The notes under the pieces were generated by a model. It searched no databases. It saw nothing but the letters and a program-made list of their open reading frames with translations, and was not told where the DNA came from. Made by a program: the position numbers and the translations under genes. A DNA stretch of 64,000 nt from Hoylesella pleuritidis JCM 14110 (GTDB taxonomy: Bacteria > Bacteroidota > Bacteroidia > Bacteroidales > Bacteroidaceae), in contig NZ_BAJN01000006.1 of the NCBI RefSeq assembly GCF_000613725.1, positions 62,001-126,000 on the forward strand. Direction: 5' to 3'. Positions 1 through 63,173 of the stretch are shown here, in pieces (the first letter of the stretch is position 1; every line of letters starts with the position of its first letter).

Positions 1-40
1 AATATAACCATAAAATCTGAAATGCAATGCATTTTTCAGC

Positions 41-77
41 AAAAAAGATAAAGGGATACATCTTTTTGCATCCCTTT
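41..77 (-). terminator. Terminator after dnaA
   Basis: An 8-bp stem (AAAGGGAT at 50-57 with ATCCCTTT at 70-77) is followed on the minus strand by a run of T. It lies just past the dnaA stop codon, so it probably ends the dnaA transcript. Confidence 0.6.
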
Positions 78-88
78 GAACTATCTTT

Positions 89-1498
89 CTATTTCTTTAA
101 CTTAAATGAATTCTCGATACTTACTATCTCATCTGAGAACAATCGATCGGTTTTCAAACGGTTTTCTACCTGTGTACAACTATGAATAACCGTAGAATGA
201 TCACGCCCTCCTACCAATTTACCGATTCGACTGGCCGGCATCTTGGTATATTTCTGGGCCAAATACATAGACACTTGACGTGCCGTGACCAGCTCGCGAC
301 GGCGACTTTTGCTGTTGACAGCGGTCGCAGAAACATTAAAATGATGACAAACGGTGTCGAGAATATCGTCAACGGTGAGCGGTTTATCATCTACTTTCAC
401 GGCGCGTTTGATAACACGTTCGGCCAAACGCATATCAATATGACTGTTATAAACCACAGAATAGGCCAGCAGACTGTTGATAACACCCTCTAAATCACGT
501 ACACTTCCGTTGGCAGTCGACGCAATATACTGCACTACTTCATCAGGAATACGAAGTCCGTCACGCCTTATTTTGCTGTTGAGAATGTCTACACAGAGCT
601 GCACATTGGGTTTCTCCAATTCGGCAATCAGGCCGCAAGAGAAGCGGGTTAGTAAACGGTCGTTCATTCCTTTAAGGTCAACGGGTGGGCGATCGCTGGC
701 TAAAATGATTCGTTTTCCATTGCGGAAGAGATGGTTGAAGATGTGGAAGAACGTGTCTTGAGTCTTCGTTGCCGTGATCCATTCTTGTATATCATCAACG
801 ATCAGAATATCAATGGTTTGATAAAAATTGATGAAGTCGTTGGTCTTATTCTGTAAAACGGCGTTGGTAAATTGCACTTGGAAGAGGCGGGCACTGATAT
901 ACAGCACACGTTTTTGCGGATAGAGCTGCTTTGCTTGCACGCCGATCGCATTGATCAGATGCGTCTTTCCGCAACCCGAAGGCCCGTAAATGAACATCGG
1001 ATTGAACTGAGTGGTGTTAGGATGTTCTGCAATGGAGAGACCGACAGAGCGTGGCAGCTTGTTGCTATCGCCCTCGATGAAGTTTGAAAAGGTTTGATGC
1101 GGGTTGAGTTGTGGGTCTAATTGTTGCGGAACGGCTGCGTCGAGAACAGTGGGTGACTGATTGGCGCGGGTCTTTTGTTGCGGAGCGAGCGAGGCATCTG
1201 TGGGATCTGCTTCGATATCTTGTGTCAACTTGTGTTCCTGATCGGTCACAACACGATACGTCAGACGAATACCCTCACCGAAAACACGGCTTAGTACTGT
1301 TTTAAGCAGGTCTACATAATTCTCTTCCAAATACTCATATACGAAAAGACTCGGCACCTGTACTAAAATCGTGCGGGTCTTCTCGTTGAATGATTCAAAC
1401 ACAATCGGTTTGAACCACGTAGCATATTGCTGTGCGGACACGTTCTTACTGATGAGCGCAAGCACCTCGTTCCAATGTTGATCAGAACTCACTTTCAT
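89..1498 (-). CDS. dnaA: Chromosomal replication initiator DnaA
   Basis: DnaA binds DnaA boxes at the origin, melts the DNA and helps load the helicase. The 469-residue protein has an N-terminal domain (about 1-80), a short acidic and Gln-rich linker, an AAA+ domain with Walker A GPSGCGKTHL near residue 172 and Walker B ILIVDD near 232, and a C-terminal helix-turn-helix with the box-binding motif RDHSTVIH. I chose the ATG at 1498, beginning MKVSSDQHW, because AGGAG lies about 8 bases upstream and the longer reading adds 26 residues foreign to the family. The gene stands alone, with repeat-rich DNA upstream. No cluster of TTATCCACA-type boxes is visible nearby, so there is no sequence support for an origin here. 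Confidence 0.97.
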   Translation of the reverse strand: MKVSSDQHWNEVLALISKNVSAQQYATWFKPIVFESFNEKTRTILVQVPSLFVYEYLEENYVDLLKTVLSRVFGEGIRLTYRVVTDQEHKLTQDIEADPTDASLAPQQKTRANQSPTVLDAAVPQQLDPQLNPHQTFSNFIEGDSNKLPRSVGLSIAEHPNTTQFNPMFIYGPSGCGKTHLINAIGVQAKQLYPQKRVLYISARLFQVQFTNAVLQNKTNDFINFYQTIDILIVDDIQEWITATKTQDTFFHIFNHLFRNGKRIILASDRPPVDLKGMNDRLLTRFSCGLIAELEKPNVQLCVDILNSKIRRDGLRIPDEVVQYIASTANGSVRDLEGVINSLLAYSVVYNSHIDMRLAERVIKRAVKVDDKPLTVDDILDTVCHHFNVSATAVNSKSRRRELVTARQVSMYLAQKYTKMPASRIGKLVGGRDHSTVIHSCTQVENRLKTDRLFSDEIVSIENSFKLKK

Positions 1499-1920
1499 TT
1501 TCACAACTCCTATATTATTAATAAGTTTGCAACTGCAAATTTCGCAAAAAAAAACAAGAAATGCAAACTCTAACATTTAATTAGATTTTGCCCGGATTGC
1601 ATAAAACGCTATAAATGGGCACTTTACGTAAAAGATTCACATCAACTCGTTTTCCTACCTCTTGCGCAATTCAAACAAACTGAATATTAGGCACTTATAG
1701 AGTCTTATCGAGCGGCGGTTCCAAATGGTGAAACACTGATGTAAAACGGCTGAAATGCTTGTGGGAAAAGCCATTTTCGAGCGTTTGAAATGTTGTGAAA
1801 CAAATGGTAGCTTATTTAGAGTAAATTTATATTTGATGCGAAATTAGCTCTTGTTTGAAATCGACTAATTTGGCTGTTTGCTTTTAGATAGGAGGTCATA
1901 AGAAATCAAAAGGAATGAGA
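1499..1920. other. AT-rich gap upstream of dnaA, no gene seen
   Basis: This gap must hold the dnaA promoter. A weak candidate on the minus strand is a TAGAGTTTG-like sequence near 1570-1580, but it does not fit the TAnnTTTG spacing exactly. I found no convincing open reading frame, DnaA-box cluster or RNA gene. A 187-bp-type repeat element begins at 1921. Confidence 0.4.
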
Positions 1921-8287: not shown

Positions 8288-8371
8288 TTGATGCTTTTCG
8301 CCTTGCGTTTAACCGTTAAACGCGCTCCGTTTAACGGCTAAACACAAGGCGATTAACGGTGAATTGATTTG
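8288..8371. repeat. Partial 22-bp unit array
   Basis: Units in 22-bp phase start at 8310 (TAACCGTTAAACG), 8332 (TAACGGCTAAACA) and 8354 (TAACGGTGAATTG). They are preceded by a sequence like the fifth unit of the element at 1921 (TGATGCTTTTCGC). The palindromic flanks are not recognisable. It lies between the convergent nitroreductase and murF-alr genes. Confidence 0.7.
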
Positions 8372-8415
8372 TATTTGCTAACTTTTTGGAAATCCGTTAG
8401 TTACAAAGAAAGAAT

Positions 8416-23277: not shown

Positions 23278-23471
23278 TACTCAAAAATAGTGAAATTCAC
23301 CGTTGTAGAGTGGGAGATAGCCGGTCAGTTACCCAATAATTGTTATTTTTTTAGAAGTAAGGAGAAGGAGAGTAGGTGGCAAGCAGGCAGGAGTAAGGAG
23401 GAAAATAGTAGGTAGTAGAGTGGTAAGTAATAATGGGTTGGTGTATTAGGATTTAAGAGCTGTAGTGCGCA

Positions 23472-23601
23472 AAGCCGTTAAATGTGCTGCAACTAACGGT
23501 TACTTGCATTGCGATTAACGGTTACTTACACGCTGATTAACGGTGAGTTGCACAGTGTTTAACGGTTACTTGCTGAGCGTTTAACGGTTAATGAGGTTGC
23601 G
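23472..23601. repeat. 22-bp unit array abutting a stop codon
   Basis: Six units in strict 22-bp phase start at 23472 (AAGCCGTTA), 23494, 23516, 23538, 23560 and 23582 (all TAACGGT). The last runs up to the base before the regulator's stop codon. No 33-bp palindromes flank it. Confidence 0.85.
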
Positions 23602-25784: not shown

Positions 25785-25907
25785 GTTTTTCATTACACAA
25801 AATTACACATCGCCTTACAAAAACGGCCAATTGGTTTGCAATTAACAGTTAAATGGTAGTAAGGAGTAGGGAAATGAGGAGGAAAATAATAGGTCGTAGC
25901 CTGTGAT

Positions 25908-26017
25908 TAACGGTTAAACACGATGTATTTAACCGTCAGTTGTGTTGCGATTAACTGTTACTTACGATGTAATTAACGGTTAAACGGCGTGTGATTAACT
26001 ATTAGTTGCAAGCTGTT
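25908..26017. repeat. 22-bp unit array, five units
   Basis: Units start at 25908 (TAACGGTTA), 25930 (TAACCGTCA), 25952 (TAACTGTTA), 25974 (TAACGGTTA) and 25996 (TAACTATTA). The right palindrome seems to begin in place (TTTTGTAATATAT at 26017) but is cut off by a long hairpin. On the left, AGTAAGGAG and GAGGAAAATA sequences (25857-25890) replace the flank and recur near the 23472 array. Confidence 0.85.
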
Positions 26018-26024
26018 TTGTAAT

Positions 26025-26116
26025 ATATTAGATGAAGAATGGAAGATAAAGGATGAAAGTTTGTTTGCCGGTTCAAGTAAACTTTCATCCTTTATCTTCC
26101 ATTCTTCATCTAATAT
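26025..26116. terminator. Exceptionally long hairpin at end of GHL10 gene
   Basis: Arms of about 38 bases (26025-26062 and 26079-26116) are perfect or nearly perfect reverse complements around a 16-base loop. The right arm touches the stop codon of the GHL10 gene. It may end transcription on either strand, but it is much longer than a normal terminator stem and purine-rich on one arm (GATGAAGAATGGAAGATAAA). Confidence 0.7.
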
Positions 26117-32815: not shown

Positions 32816-32889
32816 CGGTGCGTACGAGATTCGAACTCGTGACCTCCTGCGTGACAGGCAGGCATTCTAACCAACTGAACTAACGCACC
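32816..32889 (-). tRNA. tRNA-Asp (GTC), copy 2
   Basis: On the minus strand the cloverleaf reads GGTGCGT acceptor, AGTTCAGTTGGTTAGA D-arm, CCTGC-CTGTCAC-GCAGG anticodon arm with GTC, GTTCGAATC T-arm, ACGCACC and discriminator G. CCA is not encoded. It is identical to the copy at 32917. Confidence 0.96.
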
Positions 32890-32916
32890 AATCAGGGCTT
32901 TTCAAAAGTGAGTCAG

Positions 32917-32990
32917 CGGTGCGTACGAGATTCGAACTCGTGACCTCCTGCGTGACAGGCAGGCATTCTAACCAACTGAACTAACGCACC
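32917..32990 (-). tRNA. tRNA-Asp (GTC), copy 1
   Basis: Same sequence as the copy at 32816, 101 bases away start to start, transcribed first. A promoter lies at 33021-33052. Confidence 0.96.
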
Positions 32991-33197: not shown

Positions 33198-33384
33198 GTT
33201 ATATCTTACTGATTATCATATAGATACAAAGTGCATAACAACTAATGGTTAATGACTGCGTATTTAACCGTTAATTACCGTGCGTTTAACCATTAATCGC
33301 CCGTCGTTTAACGGTCTTTTACACGCCGTTTAGCCGTTAACCGTAGAGAGATTTGTATATATCTGATTATCATATATATACAAA
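33198..33384. repeat. 187-bp composite palindrome/22-bp repeat element
   Basis: Left 33-bp palindrome 33198-33230, 12-base spacer, units at 33243, 33265, 33287, 33309 (22 bp each) and 33331 (21 bp), right palindrome 33352-33384. The right flank is nearly perfectly self-complementary: TTTGTATATAT, a TGATTATCA centre, then ATATATACAAA. Cores read TAATGGTTA, TAACCGTTA, TAACCATTA, TAACGGTCT and TAGCCGTTA. Dyad centres are 33, 22, 22, 22, 22 and 33 bp apart. Beside the element the 32991-33562 gap holds only a short hairpin CTCTC...GAGAG near 33432-33452. Confidence 0.9.
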
Positions 33385-38362: not shown

Positions 38363-38440
38363 TATTAGCATAGGATAATGATTAAACAAAAGGAGTTTTA
38401 TTCTCATATAGAAGTATGAAAGACTAAAAACGAAGGGAAG

Positions 38441-38627
38441 TTTATATCTTACTGTGAATCAATAAGATATAAATAGATTTTTAATTAATTATTAATTGAC
38501 TTGCGATTAACTGTTAATTGGTGTGCGAAAAGCCGCTAAATGCAACGCATTTAACCGTTAGTTACAATGCGATTGACCGTTAATTGGAAAGAAACTCATA
38601 TTTCATTGATTCCCAGGTATATATAAA
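38441..38627. repeat. 187-bp composite palindrome/22-bp repeat element
   Basis: Left palindrome 38441-38473 (TTTATATCTTA and its reverse complement TAAGATATAAA around GTGAATCAA), 12-base spacer, units at 38486, 38508, 38530, 38552 and 38574 (the last 21 bp), right palindrome 38595-38627 (centre ATTGATTCCCAG). Cores read TAATTATTA, TAACTGTTA, AAGCCGCTA, TAACCGTTA and TGACCGTTA. Its length and spacing equal the copies at 33198, 58613 and 62987. Confidence 0.9.
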
Positions 38628-38711
38628 TCCACTTTCATTTCTGTTCTTTTATTCTTCCGATTGAAAAGAAACGGGCTTCTAACTCTAATTTTATCAGAGA
38701 ATATTCAATTG

Positions 38712-43808: not shown

Positions 43809-45695
43809 ATGATGGACTCTCAGTTGAACACCCTGGAACAGGGAATGAATGAAGAAGAGAAAGTATTGCCGGACAGTAAGATGGTTAATGACGATGTAAA
43901 AGACACTGAATCACCTTCTGACACGCCGTTAAATGTAGAGCAATTAACGGCAGAGCACGATGCCGATAACGATTACTTGCAAAAGGTTTATACAACCAAG
44001 CAAGAGATATTGGAACGCGTTCGTGAAATCGCTCACGGCGAAGAGGCCCCTCGCAAGGAGGAAGTAGACTATCTGAAAACCGTCTTCTACAAACTGCACA
44101 TTGCCGAACGCGATGTCCAACAACGTGAGTATTTGGAGGCGGGAGGCAATCCTGATACCTATTCCGTACTTCCCGACGATGATGAAGAGGCGTTCAAGGC
44201 CGAGATGATCATTATTAAAGAGCGACGTGCGAAGCTCTTCCAAGAGAAAGAAGCAGAGAAAGCGGAGAACCTGAAACGCAAACTCGAGATCATAGAGAAG
44301 ATTAAAGCGATGGCCATTTCGCCCGATGAGGCTAACAAATCATATCTGCAATTCAAAGAATTACAACAAGAGTGGAAAGAGATCAAGGCAGTCCCAGCAG
44401 AGAAAGCCAATGAACTTTGGCGTAATTATCAATCTATGTGGAGCAGTTTTATGATTTATTGAAATTGAATAGTGAAGCGCGCGAGTATGATTTCAAGAAA
44501 AATCTTGAACGTAAAACAAAGCTTTGTGAAGCTGCAGAAAAGTTGGCTGATGAGTCAGATGTAATCAGTGCTTTCCATCAATTGCAGGAGTTGCACCAGC
44601 AGTATCGTGAGATCGGCCCCGTTTCTAAGGATTTGCGTGAAGAAATTTGGGCTCGCTTCAAAGCTGCTTCCACTGTTATCAACAAACGCCATCAGCAACA
44701 TTTTGAACAACTTAGAGCTAAGGAGAATGAGAATCTGACCAAAAAGACGGTCCTCTGTGAGCAAGTTGAAACCTTAGCACAGCAAGAATGTAAGACCGCA
44801 GCCGATTGGGAGAAACTCACCAAAGAGATTATCGCCGTGCAAGCAGAATGGAAAACCATCGGATTTGCACCGCAGAAGATGAACGTTAAAATATTCGAGC
44901 GTTTCCGTTCGACTTGTGATGATTTCTTCAGTCGTAAAGCAACGTTTTTTCAAAGAGTTGAAAACGCAATATGCAGAGAATGCAGAAAAGAAGAAGACTT
45001 TGGTAGAAAAGGCCCGCGCTCTGCAAGATAGTACTGAATGGAAATCTACAAGTGACAAACTCATTGCTCTGCAAAAAGAATGGAAAACCATCGGAATGGT
45101 TCCCCGAAAGTTGGGTGATCAGCTATGGAATGACTTCCTCAATGCTTGCAATCATTTCTTCGAGGCACGTAATTCGGCTAATGCTGGCACACGAAATGAG
45201 GAAAAAGACAACCTCGGAAAGAAGCGAGACATTATTGCTCAATTGAAAACACTGGCCGAAGAAAAGGCAGACAATATTCAGGAAAAGGTTCAGAGTCTGG
45301 TAGACGAATACAATCAAGTGGGGCACGTACCATATAAAGAAAAAGATAAGCTGTACAAAGAGTATCACGATATACTTGATAAACTGTATAAAGAACTGAA
45401 TATCTCTATTGCACGGAAGCGTCTTGATAATTTCAAGAACAATTTGAAGAACGTGGCTAAGCGTGGGGAAGACGCCTTGGACAATGAACGTGGTCGCCTG
45501 ATGCGGCGTTATGAGCAAGTGAAACAAGAAGTTCAGACGTATGAAAACAATCTTGGTTTCCTCAATGCCAGCAGTAAAAAAGGCAACAGTTTGATTGACG
45601 AAATGAATCGGAAAGTGCAGAAACTCAAAGATGATATGAGTCTTTTGCGCGAAAAGATCAAGGCAATCGACAAGCAAAGTGAAGCCGAAGAATAA
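43809..45695 (+). CDS. DUF349-repeat protein, two frameshifts as sequenced
   Basis: The restored protein is 628 residues: an acidic N-terminal tail (about 1-60), then repeated DUF349 helical modules of about 70 residues (for example LQFKELQQEWKEIKAVPAEK and KLIALQKEWKTIGMVPRKLG), and a C-terminal coiled coil (QKLKDDMSLLREKIKAID). DUF349 proteins are mostly uncharacterised. The frame breaks twice: near 44431-44438 (one base missing; expected YVEQFYDLLK) and at the T run 44945-44950 (one T too many; expected RKATFFKELK). A -7 box TAAGTTTG lies at 43750-43757. The first frame start has ATG at 43809 and 43812. A strong terminator follows. Confidence 0.87.
43923..43988 (+). repeat. 22-bp phased units inside the DUF349 gene
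   Basis: ACGCCGTTAAATG at 43923, TAACGGCAGAGCA at 43945 and TAACGATTACTTGC at 43967 are exactly 22 bp apart and resemble the intergenic units. They encode part of the acidic N-terminal tail. Confidence 0.55.
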
Positions 45696-49441: not shown

Positions 49442-49475
49442 AATTATGACATTCGATTATTCGGCTGATTGCGAC

Positions 49476-49563
49476 TAACTGTTAGTTGTATTGCAATTAA
49501 CCGTTAGTTACAACGCGAAAAGCCGTTAATCGGACGACGATTAACGGCTTTTCGCAAACCAAT
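49476..49563. repeat. 22-bp unit array with built-in hairpin
   Basis: Units start at 49476 (TAACTGTTA), 49498 (TAACCGTTA), 49520 (AAGCCGTTA) and 49542 (TAACGGCTT). Units three and four are reverse complements, forming a perfect 18-bp stem with a 5-base loop (49515-49555) that ends in AAAGC and GCTTT runs. It lies between the convergent cdsA and lpxB genes and may serve as a two-way terminator. Confidence 0.85.
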
Positions 49564-49650
49564 TTACACTTGATCACTTTCGGGACTGCCGTTTTGGCTG
49601 CGACAAAAAGGCAGTATCACTTGATCGCCTTTCCCCTTTCGGCCACCCTT

Positions 49651-53522: not shown

Positions 53523-54251
53523 GTGGACAGACATCATCATAAGATATTACTTTTATTGCTGATTGTCAGTATTTTATTAGTCATTGCCCCCCGATCGGTA
53601 TTCGCTGGGGAACTGGACACATTGCAAGTAACGGTCAATCACGATGCAAAAAGCATCGAATCGGAAAGCGAAACACCGTTAGATACACTGCAAAAGACCG
53701 TTCTTCAGAATACGCCTAAAAAGAAACCGGCACGTGATTGGGCCACTTGGCATCCCAATCCCAAGCGAGCATTGTGGCTTGCATTGGTTCTACCTGGTGC
53801 TGGACAAATCTATAATCGTAAGTATTGGAAGTTACCATTAGTATATGGAGGCTTTGTTGGCTGTGTCTATGCAATGCGATGGAACGACCAGATGTACCAC
53901 GATTACTCACAGGCATATTTAGATATATCGGATGATGACCCCAACACGCAGAGCTATAACCAGTTTCTGCATTTAGGAAAAGCCATTACTAAGGAAAATA
54001 TGGCTACCTATCAGAATCTCTTCAAGCAGCGAAAAGATCGCTATCGGAGATGGCGCGATCTCAGCTTCTTTTGTCTTTTGGGCGTCTATGCTTTGTCGGT
54101 CATCGATGCTTATGTAGATGCTTCGCTCTCTGAATTTGACATTTCAAATAATCTCAGTCTACGAGTTGAACCGGCCATCATCAATAATCGTATTTCGCGT
54201 AACCCATTTACGGCTTCTGCTGTGGGACTACAATGCAGCTTGAATTTTTAA
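53523..54251 (+). CDS. DUF5683-type exported membrane protein
   Basis: The 242-residue protein starts at GTG 53523, four bases after parB. It has an N-terminal signal or anchor (about 8-27), a variable linker (about 30-70), then the conserved core WHPNPKRALWLALVLPGAGQIYNRKYWKLPLVYGG, a membrane segment, a polar region and a second membrane segment (LSFFCLLGVYALSVIDAYVDA). This protein is a regular neighbour of parB and mltD in Bacteroidales. Its function is unknown. The linker is encoded by 22-bp phased DNA (53629-53716). Confidence 0.85.
   Translation: MDRHHHKILLLLLIVSILLVIAPRSVFAGELDTLQVTVNHDAKSIESESETPLDTLQKTVLQNTPKKKPARDWATWHPNPKRALWLALVLPGAGQIYNRKYWKLPLVYGGFVGCVYAMRWNDQMYHDYSQAYLDISDDDPNTQSYNQFLHLGKAITKENMATYQNLFKQRKDRYRRWRDLSFFCLLGVYALSVIDAYVDASLSEFDISNNLSLRVEPAIINNRISRNPFTASAVGLQCSLNF
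53629..53716 (+). repeat. 22-bp phased units inside the DUF5683 gene
   Basis: TAACGGTCAATCAC...TGCAAA at 53629, AAGCATCGAA at 53651, ACACCGTTAGATA...TGCAAA at 53673 and AGACCGTTCTTC at 53695 keep a 22-bp phase. The first closely matches the first unit of the intergenic element at 1921 (TAACGGTTAATCAC...TGCAAA|AAGC). Confidence 0.6.
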
Positions 54252-58470: not shown

Positions 58471-58612
58471 AATATATCCATTAGTCGGTAAACGCACAGC
58501 TTATAATAATCTGTATTAGAGAGGAAAACGTCTTGTTTATCTGTATTGGAGGACGATTGGTGCATCATCCTCCAATCAAACATAAATCCAAAAGAATAAA
58601 AACGGAACAGAA

Positions 58613-58799
58613 TTTGTATGTGATTGATTTTCTGCAACATACAGATCTCTTTTCAATTAATGGTTACTTGCACGGCAATTAACGGTTGAACGCACAATGA
58701 AAAACGGTTAAACGACAAGTGTTTAACCGTTAATTACAGGACGATTGACAGTTCATCAGGAAGCAATTTGTATATCATTGATTTTCAGTAACATATAAT
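58613..58799. repeat. 187-bp composite palindrome/22-bp repeat element
   Basis: Left palindrome 58613-58645 (centre ATTGATTTTCTG), 12-base spacer, units at 58658, 58680, 58702, 58724 and 58746 (the last 21 bp), right palindrome 58767-58799 (centre ATTGATTTTCAG). Cores read TAATGGTTA, TAACGGTTG, AAACGGTTA, TAACCGTTA and TGACAGTTC. Spacing is identical to the other 187-bp copies. Confidence 0.9.
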
Positions 58800-62986: not shown

Positions 62987-63173
62987 TTTATATTTTATTG
63001 ATAATCAGATAGATACAAAATACTCTGTAATTAACGGTTTCCCGCATTGCAAGTCGCGGTTAAATGCACTGCAATCAACCGTTAATTATACGCCGTTTAA
63101 CCGTTAAATGCAAGGTGTTTAACGGTTAATTGGAATGCACTTTATATTCTGTTGATTCCCAACAATATACGAG
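62987..63173. repeat. 187-bp composite palindrome/22-bp repeat element
   Basis: Left palindrome 62987-63019 (centre ATTGATAATCAG), 12-base spacer, units at 63032, 63054, 63076, 63098 and 63120 (the last 21 bp), right palindrome 63141-63173 (centre GTTGATTCCCAA). Cores read TAACGGTTT, TCGCGGTTA, CAACCGTTA, TAACCGTTA and TAACGGTTA. It fills most of the 62889-63224 gap. Confidence 0.9.

Follow-up and report, generated by a model that had tools for sequence, protein, structure and literature searches.

Dispersed intergenic repeats are often regarded as decaying debris. REP/BIME sequences with their RAYT are short palindromic intergenic repeats present in many copies; the BOX elements of Streptococcus pneumoniae are modular, with ends that enclose internal units varying in number; the ends of Tn7 or Mu carry multiple transposase-binding sites about 22 bp long; and matS sites are dispersed sites that organise the chromosome. 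The nearest described element found in the Bacteroidales is BrickBuilt, a MITE of Porphyromonas gingivalis made up of tandem 23-nt units with a leader, a tail, and inverted ends. According to the accessible part of its description, it is intergenic, has 19 copies in strain ATCC 33277 and a unit consensus of AGAYCATARTATCCTCTCRTRTG, and its ends match IS5-family elements (PMC4596501).

The element described here is from a window of 64,000 nt, the whole stretch of DNA analysed, which corresponds to C44:62001-126000 of a 2.56-Mb draft genome in 49 contigs. As far as the accessible description of BrickBuilt goes (PMC4596501), it is like that element in belonging to the Bacteroidales, in being intergenic, and in having tandem units of similar length. 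The earlier note on this DNA took the family to be unnamed, and this still holds: there is no match to it in Rfam, its sequence differs from that of BrickBuilt, and no description of it was found in the open-licence literature.

Architecture, length, and constraint

Four copies, all on the plus strand, at 33198-33384, 38441-38627, 58613-58799 (between a RelA/SpoT-type gene and an alanyl-tRNA-synthetase-type gene), and 62987-63173, are each 187 bp long and align with one another without gaps, as first reported. The layout then proposed, 33 + 12 + 4x22 + 21 + 33, is found in all four, with five palindromic units at 22-bp spacing between two 33-bp caps; in the first copy the caps are at 33198-33230 and 33352-33384 and the array at 33231-33351. 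The caps are near-palindromes, as claimed, with 16 to 30 of 33 positions matching their own reverse complement depending on the copy, and a clearly palindromic consensus. The element is close to its own mirror image over its whole length, and for this reason a profile of it matches both strands.

The profile built from these four copies found further arrays in the window, for 11 matches in all, six of them without a complete pair of caps. A fifth full copy, 198 bp long (187 + 11), is located at 1921-2118 on the plus strand, in the gap upstream of dnaA. Arrays of 22-bp units, with no strand assigned, are at 8298-8407 (with at most one weak cap) and at 23452-23594, 25897-26027, and 49465-49576 (no caps found), the last of these between convergent ORFs. 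Two weak matches, also without a strand, are in coding sequence, one of 26 bits at 43881-43989 within a DUF349 protein (ORF 43809-44462) and one of 39 bits at 53554-53737 in the region coding for the N-terminus of a DUF5683 protein (ORF 53523-54251). The latter is no evidence of an insertion, as the DUF5683 orthologs read have N-termini of similar lengths. Two tandem tRNA genes with identical Rfam scores are located near the first copy, on the minus strand at 32816-32990.

In the genome as a whole, the four-copy model gave at least 154 matches over both strands, at a minimum of about 89 distinct places; these are lower bounds, with 150 of 1676 first-look candidates scored. The DNA fetched from this genome contains 50 unique complete copies, of which 32 are 187 bp long, five 186, three 188, four 165, two 175, two 198, one 209, and one 230. 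Forty are therefore within 1 bp of 187, and nine of the other ten are off by 11, 12, or 22 bp. The fixed length proposed from the window thus stands as a strong constraint but not an absolute one, most of the variation coming in increments of about 11 or 22 bp; a wide scatter of lengths, which the note had held to be fatal to its claim, is not seen among these full copies. The cap pattern, with up to two mismatches, occurs at 167 places in this genome versus three for a reversed control, and 45 of 46 caps with a model score above 19 in 664 kb of its DNA have a unit within 220 bp.

Among 49 placed copies, 22 are in tandem, 17 in convergent, and 10 in divergent gaps, with no clear enrichment of any type: the 14 window gaps of at least 150 bp are divided eight, four, and two. 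Overlap with a called ORF exceeds 60 bp in three of the 49 and not in the other 46. The largest contig, C49, makes up 12% of the genome and has just one of the approximately 89 best-scoring places (p = 1e-4); weaker matches are present on it (eight in seven 20-kb samples). Within C49 the sign of the GC skew changes, as it would at a terminus. Over 33 samples of 20 kb, those richer in GC have more matches (rho = 0.48, p = 0.005). The regional bias applies to this genome only. In a relative, G131, the eight cap positions look by eye to be spread out with respect to dnaA, so a general origin bias is not claimed.

Confinement to 187 bp, as first described, was not borne out. An inward-reading arm of about 45 bp is shared by up to 37 of 100 outside flanks, versus 1 of 100 shuffled ones, in a search run in fixed register, and information drops past about 45 bp. 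A model from half the flanks found the arm in 16 of 50 in the other half and in 0 of 50 shuffled, although that other half was picked with a model trained on all flanks. Arms are present on both sides of 11 of the 50 copies; in one of these both flanks are a different palindrome, and safer counts are 35 flanks and 10 copies. In the window, inverted arms are found to the left (38396-38440, plus strand; flank 15L) and right (38628-38672, minus strand; flank 15R) of the second copy (locus L034), and single ones to the left of the third copy (58568-58612, plus strand; flank 8L, locus L032) and of the copy upstream of dnaA (1876-1920, plus strand; flank 40L). Direct repeats abutting the 187-bp edges, 2 bp long, occur in two of 32 copies, with about 2.3 expected by chance, and these edges are probably not the true ends of the element.

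Outside some arms a further module is shared, CCCTAAGTTAGGGGG...TGTAAACAGAG (flanks 31L, 38L, 7R, 13R, and 0R of this genome), which suggests that the element is a mosaic. A separate intergenic palindrome, of the CCCCTCTCC-AAAGGAGAGGGG type, recurs beside several elements, for example in the left flank of the fourth window copy and in both flanks of the C49 copy in the L103 region.

Column statistics were taken from the 32 copies of exactly 187 bp, with the other 18 left out. Their pairwise identity is 0.50-0.73 (mean 0.615), without any close pair. Even so, the steps TA, TG, CA, and TA of the caps are kept in 28 to 32 of the 32 copies, and among 320 unit half-sites there is a pyrimidine at -8 in 318 and a purine at -7 in 317; other unit columns are near random, and some columns of the alignment are almost information-free. 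If the copies were dead and decaying, neither these positions nor the lengths would be expected to survive. Left and right caps within one copy are no more alike than caps from different copies, so they are not a recent duplication of one target. There is no sign of covariation: across the whole mirror 1738 Watson-Crick pairs are observed versus 1770 expected from column frequencies, the left and right caps have 328 (326 expected) and 318 (320 expected), and in the units complementary pairs are at the column-frequency expectation, without compensatory base changes. Half-sites thus behave independently, which fits double-stranded protein sites rather than RNA hairpins. Taken from the alignment, the length constraint and symmetry look like those of symmetric protein-binding sites. 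One pair of left-cap columns, 8 and 26, is complementary in 19 of 32 copies versus 8.3 expected, as the best of many pairs examined; its counterpart in the right cap is complementary in 5 of 32.

Caps and arrays in related genomes

With at most one mismatch, the cap pattern was found in 125 of 150 genomes of the GTDB genus, at 99 places in this genome and 0-21 in the other 149; counts for the reversed pattern were mostly 0 and at most 3. The four-copy model (R1) matched no relative among the best candidates scored (one of 119 genomes, its own), because units differ between species. A model from 40 of the 50 copies (R2) gave weak matches in five of 37 relatives, where the arrays have a different word and some are beside caps. 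At 84 loci chosen by their caps in other genus members, 34 had a strong period, 30 of them at lag 22; adding five loci from G004 that were chosen by array match makes 89 loci, 35 with a strong period and 31 at 22 bp. Units were compared for the 36 of 57 loci with an array strong enough to use. Across seven species, the best 33-mer identity between arrays averaged 25.6 within species (97 pairs) versus 19.3 between them (533 pairs). The unit is species-specific, and the 22-bp period is constant. The element of this species is accordingly one version of a design that occurs across the genus.

When 20 relatives were read without cap selection, lag 22 was seen in two stretches, versus five at lag 24 and four at lag 16; as it is not the commonest lag there, such arrays are not common in most relatives. 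Cap loci from across the order, beyond the genus, lack a lag-22 signal. The cap pattern was found in 224 of 295 genomes of the order, counts of 1-3 being near the reversed-pattern control in many of them. Of the G205 regions, those readable in full appear to be mostly coding sequence. G383, from another Bacteroidales family, has clusters of up to nine caps with up to three mismatches (L270-L273, L276, L277, and L286), with no lag-22 arrays apparent in the stretches read. In G045 (C1:2592500-2593700, L283), three identical cap-like sites at intervals of about 262-265 bp are in what reads like a tandem repeat, and identical cap-like sequences near contig edges in G338 (L246; C9:36, C15:41, and C25:6523) are probably part of a repeated element there. 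As a pattern, two strict adjacent units had no match in viral contigs.

Shared gaps and signs of spread

The dnaA gene is at 89-1576 of the window, on the minus strand, which presumably places the window at the origin. Among named DnaA proteins the nearest, 99% identical, is from Hoylesella enoeca JCM 12259, and the DNA (window 1-1576 versus L401) is 99-100% identical over most of the gene. In 200-bp blocks around dnaA identity is 68-93%, and the next protein is 89% identical. The host is thus a Hoylesella, in Prevotella sensu lato, related to H. enoeca, but dnaA alone overstates the closeness of the two species; a recent exchange of the gene is one possibility, a mosaic draft another. The H. 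enoeca dnaA gap has a unit of this genome's type and at least one recognisable cap, with only about 62% identity over the remainder of the gap. Since the whole gap has diverged and not the element alone, unusually fast evolution of the elements was dropped as an idea. A coding stretch of H. enoeca, L401:109-187, in a gene we take to be folB-like, fits the unit profile with 42 bits (E = 1e-11), while the homologous gene in this genome scores only 3 bits. The match contains no indel relative to that gene, so at this one locus substitution can create sites while the protein is conserved.

Two overlapping surveys were made of the dnaA gap. In 30 genomes, the neighbouring gene was found in 28 (in one wrongly oriented for use); three have strong lag-22 arrays, and this genome and P. 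illustrans (G012) have weaker ones. The other survey covered 80 named loci, 74 of them syntenic; a strong period was seen at nine, at 22 in seven and at 14 and 17 in one each. Many of the gaps surveyed had no array that could be seen. The element is present in this gap in G131 and P. aurantiaca and absent in P. falsenii, which is 88-92% identical to G131. As P. aurantiaca is filled too, the absence is most simply a loss, and this copy is dispensable. Gene order after spoT is too varied among 20 relatives for an insertion comparison, but array-like sequence follows spoT in G016 and likewise, with a cap, in G010.

By best hits in an unbiased sample, homologs of cap-adjacent genes are within 450 bp of an element in this genome in 12 of 23 cases, versus 6 of 27 farther genes of the same loci (p = 0.028) and 125 of 585 background genes (p = 0.001), the 450-bp limit having been set on earlier loci that were partly re-used. 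Without the five array-chosen G004 loci the figure is 11 of 22 (p = 0.042), at 45% identity or more it is 9 of 19 versus 4 of 23 (p = 0.039), and per locus it is 10 of 18, the dnaA gap accounting for two. The evidence for elements in gaps shared between species is suggestive, not strong. Solitary caps in three species (L131, L140, and L147) are found in the gap between a small lipoprotein-like gene and one that is presumably mtaB-like.

Longer copies are found in two relatives. P. illustrans has six of about 370-400 bp that are 82-91% identical, with a seventh at 72-76%, and G131 has six that are 73-88% identical over about 140-305 bp. In both genomes these are in different places and their ends are largely abrupt; such copies have dispersed as whole units.

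Possible roles and comparison with known systems

The element appears to work most like a protein-docking array. It has the symmetric, spaced, and constrained sites of one, and the recurrence of the same design with a differing repeated word across species suggests docking arrays for a changing putative DNA-binding protein. It is proposed tentatively, at somewhat less than an even chance, that an old, once mobile repeat now forms dispersed docking arrays for such a protein. These would be occupied by one or more sequence-specific, dimeric host proteins that bind double-stranded DNA. The 33-bp palindromic cap would be read by a conserved protein and mark an end, and the 22-bp palindromic units, spaced by two helical turns, would be read by a protein that prefers a different word from lineage to lineage; bound side by side, these proteins, whatever their number and role, could form a phased nucleoprotein patch in intergenic gaps, possibly with an architectural role. 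The family would have begun as a short dispersing repeat, as which it may still act in some relatives; in this lineage it would have been domesticated, with old copies kept by selection on site pattern and spacing. The copies that have spread in P. illustrans and G131 count against this, since a mobile element explains them directly.

Such an element, a MITE-like non-autonomous transposable element whose transposase would bind the caps, the arms, and the 22-bp subterminal sites, is the main rival, a serious candidate if on balance a doubtful one. Its architecture would be fixed since only intact copies move, and each lineage would amplify its own variant, which fits species-specific units and the great differences between species in the number of caps (99 here versus 0-21). 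The element is short, non-coding, and dispersed in many copies, as MITEs are, and it has inverted outer arms in this genome. Less easily accommodated are the lack of any excess of direct repeats at the 187-bp edges (probably not the true ends), the absence of a close pair among the 32 copies, unlike a recently active family, and the occurrence of some gaps common to several species. In 664 kb, only one of 46 caps has no unit nearby, as could be expected of a transposon end; the filled and empty dnaA gaps of G131 and P. falsenii read as loss; and no transposase linked to the element was found in the 664 kb, at the caps examined. The earlier note gave a binding array and a mobile element as alternative roles; features of both are seen, and the two need not be mutually exclusive.

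Local regulatory sites, operators or promoters for neighbouring genes, are improbable. Some copies are upstream of genes such as dnaA, and the solitary caps adjoin the same gene pair in three species, but all gene contexts occur, and a convergent gap would not be expected to hold a neighbour's promoter; ten annotated window proteins, seven of them adjoining full copies, have no evident common function. An RNA or cruciform element, acting as a terminator, attenuator, or hairpin, is very unlikely: the units are palindromic and some arrays in other species could form hairpins, but apart from the one left-cap pair, complementary pairs are at expectation in units, caps, and the whole mirror, and the Rfam search of the window, which returned only three tRNAs, left the element unmatched. 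The 17 of 49 copies in convergent gaps are of little help to it, four of 14 window gaps being convergent too. In this genome the absence of compensating changes largely refutes this reading. A REP/BIME-type repeat dispersed by a RAYT (Y1_Tnp) would likewise be palindromic and intergenic, and the sole Y1_Tnp gene found here (G000:C39:57329-57670, locus L214) is about 400 bp from one of the elements. That gene, however, is flanked by its own, unrelated palindromes of CACTGTTGTCCGCTTCGCTCCCAACAGTGCC and CATCCGCTATGCGGATG type, and Y1_Tnp was matched in 10 of 15 cap-rich genomes versus 9 of 11 cap-poor ones, with none in G122, G003, G039, G012, or G026. The link was rejected on these two grounds, and there is scarcely any likelihood left in it.

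If the docking-array proposal is taken further, to a genome-wide DNA-docking system of Prevotella sensu lato that inherits its positions, cap, and 22-bp period while each lineage rewrites the array word throughout its genome, it becomes rather unlikely. Were it true, this bacterial system would have its counterpart in fast-evolving centromere satellites or in PRDM9-type motif turnover, with a chromosome-structuring protein co-evolving with its many sites or caught in an arms race with them. Copies that have lost most of their sequence identity here retain length, spacing, and key base steps, and the architecture recurs across species with a different unit in each. The repeats amount to a natural experiment in the joint change of a DNA-binding protein and scores of its sites. 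They also point to a putative new DNA-binding factor in abundant human oral and gut bacteria, whose nucleoid proteins have to our knowledge been little studied.

Among described systems, the element lacks one defining feature of REP/BIME and one of BrickBuilt. Identity with BrickBuilt was rejected because its 23-nt consensus unit is absent: the period is 22 rather than 23, the unit is unrelated to AGAYCATARTATCCTCTCRTRTG, and the accessible part of the BrickBuilt description includes no 33-bp palindromic caps (PMC4596501). Unlike REP/BIME, the element has no linked RAYT, and it has a 22-bp array and 33-bp caps. The remaining comparisons, with BOX and with the ends of Tn7 or Mu, are by description only. 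The modular plan is like that of BOX elements, which are from another phylum; here there is no hairpin covariation. An array of sites of about 22 bp is also found at Tn7 or Mu ends, but in this case the units are palindromic, there are palindromic caps at both ends, and no transposase was found. Although far longer than matS, modular, and with a binding protein that is only putative, the element is like it in forming dozens of dispersed sites with a regional bias in this genome.
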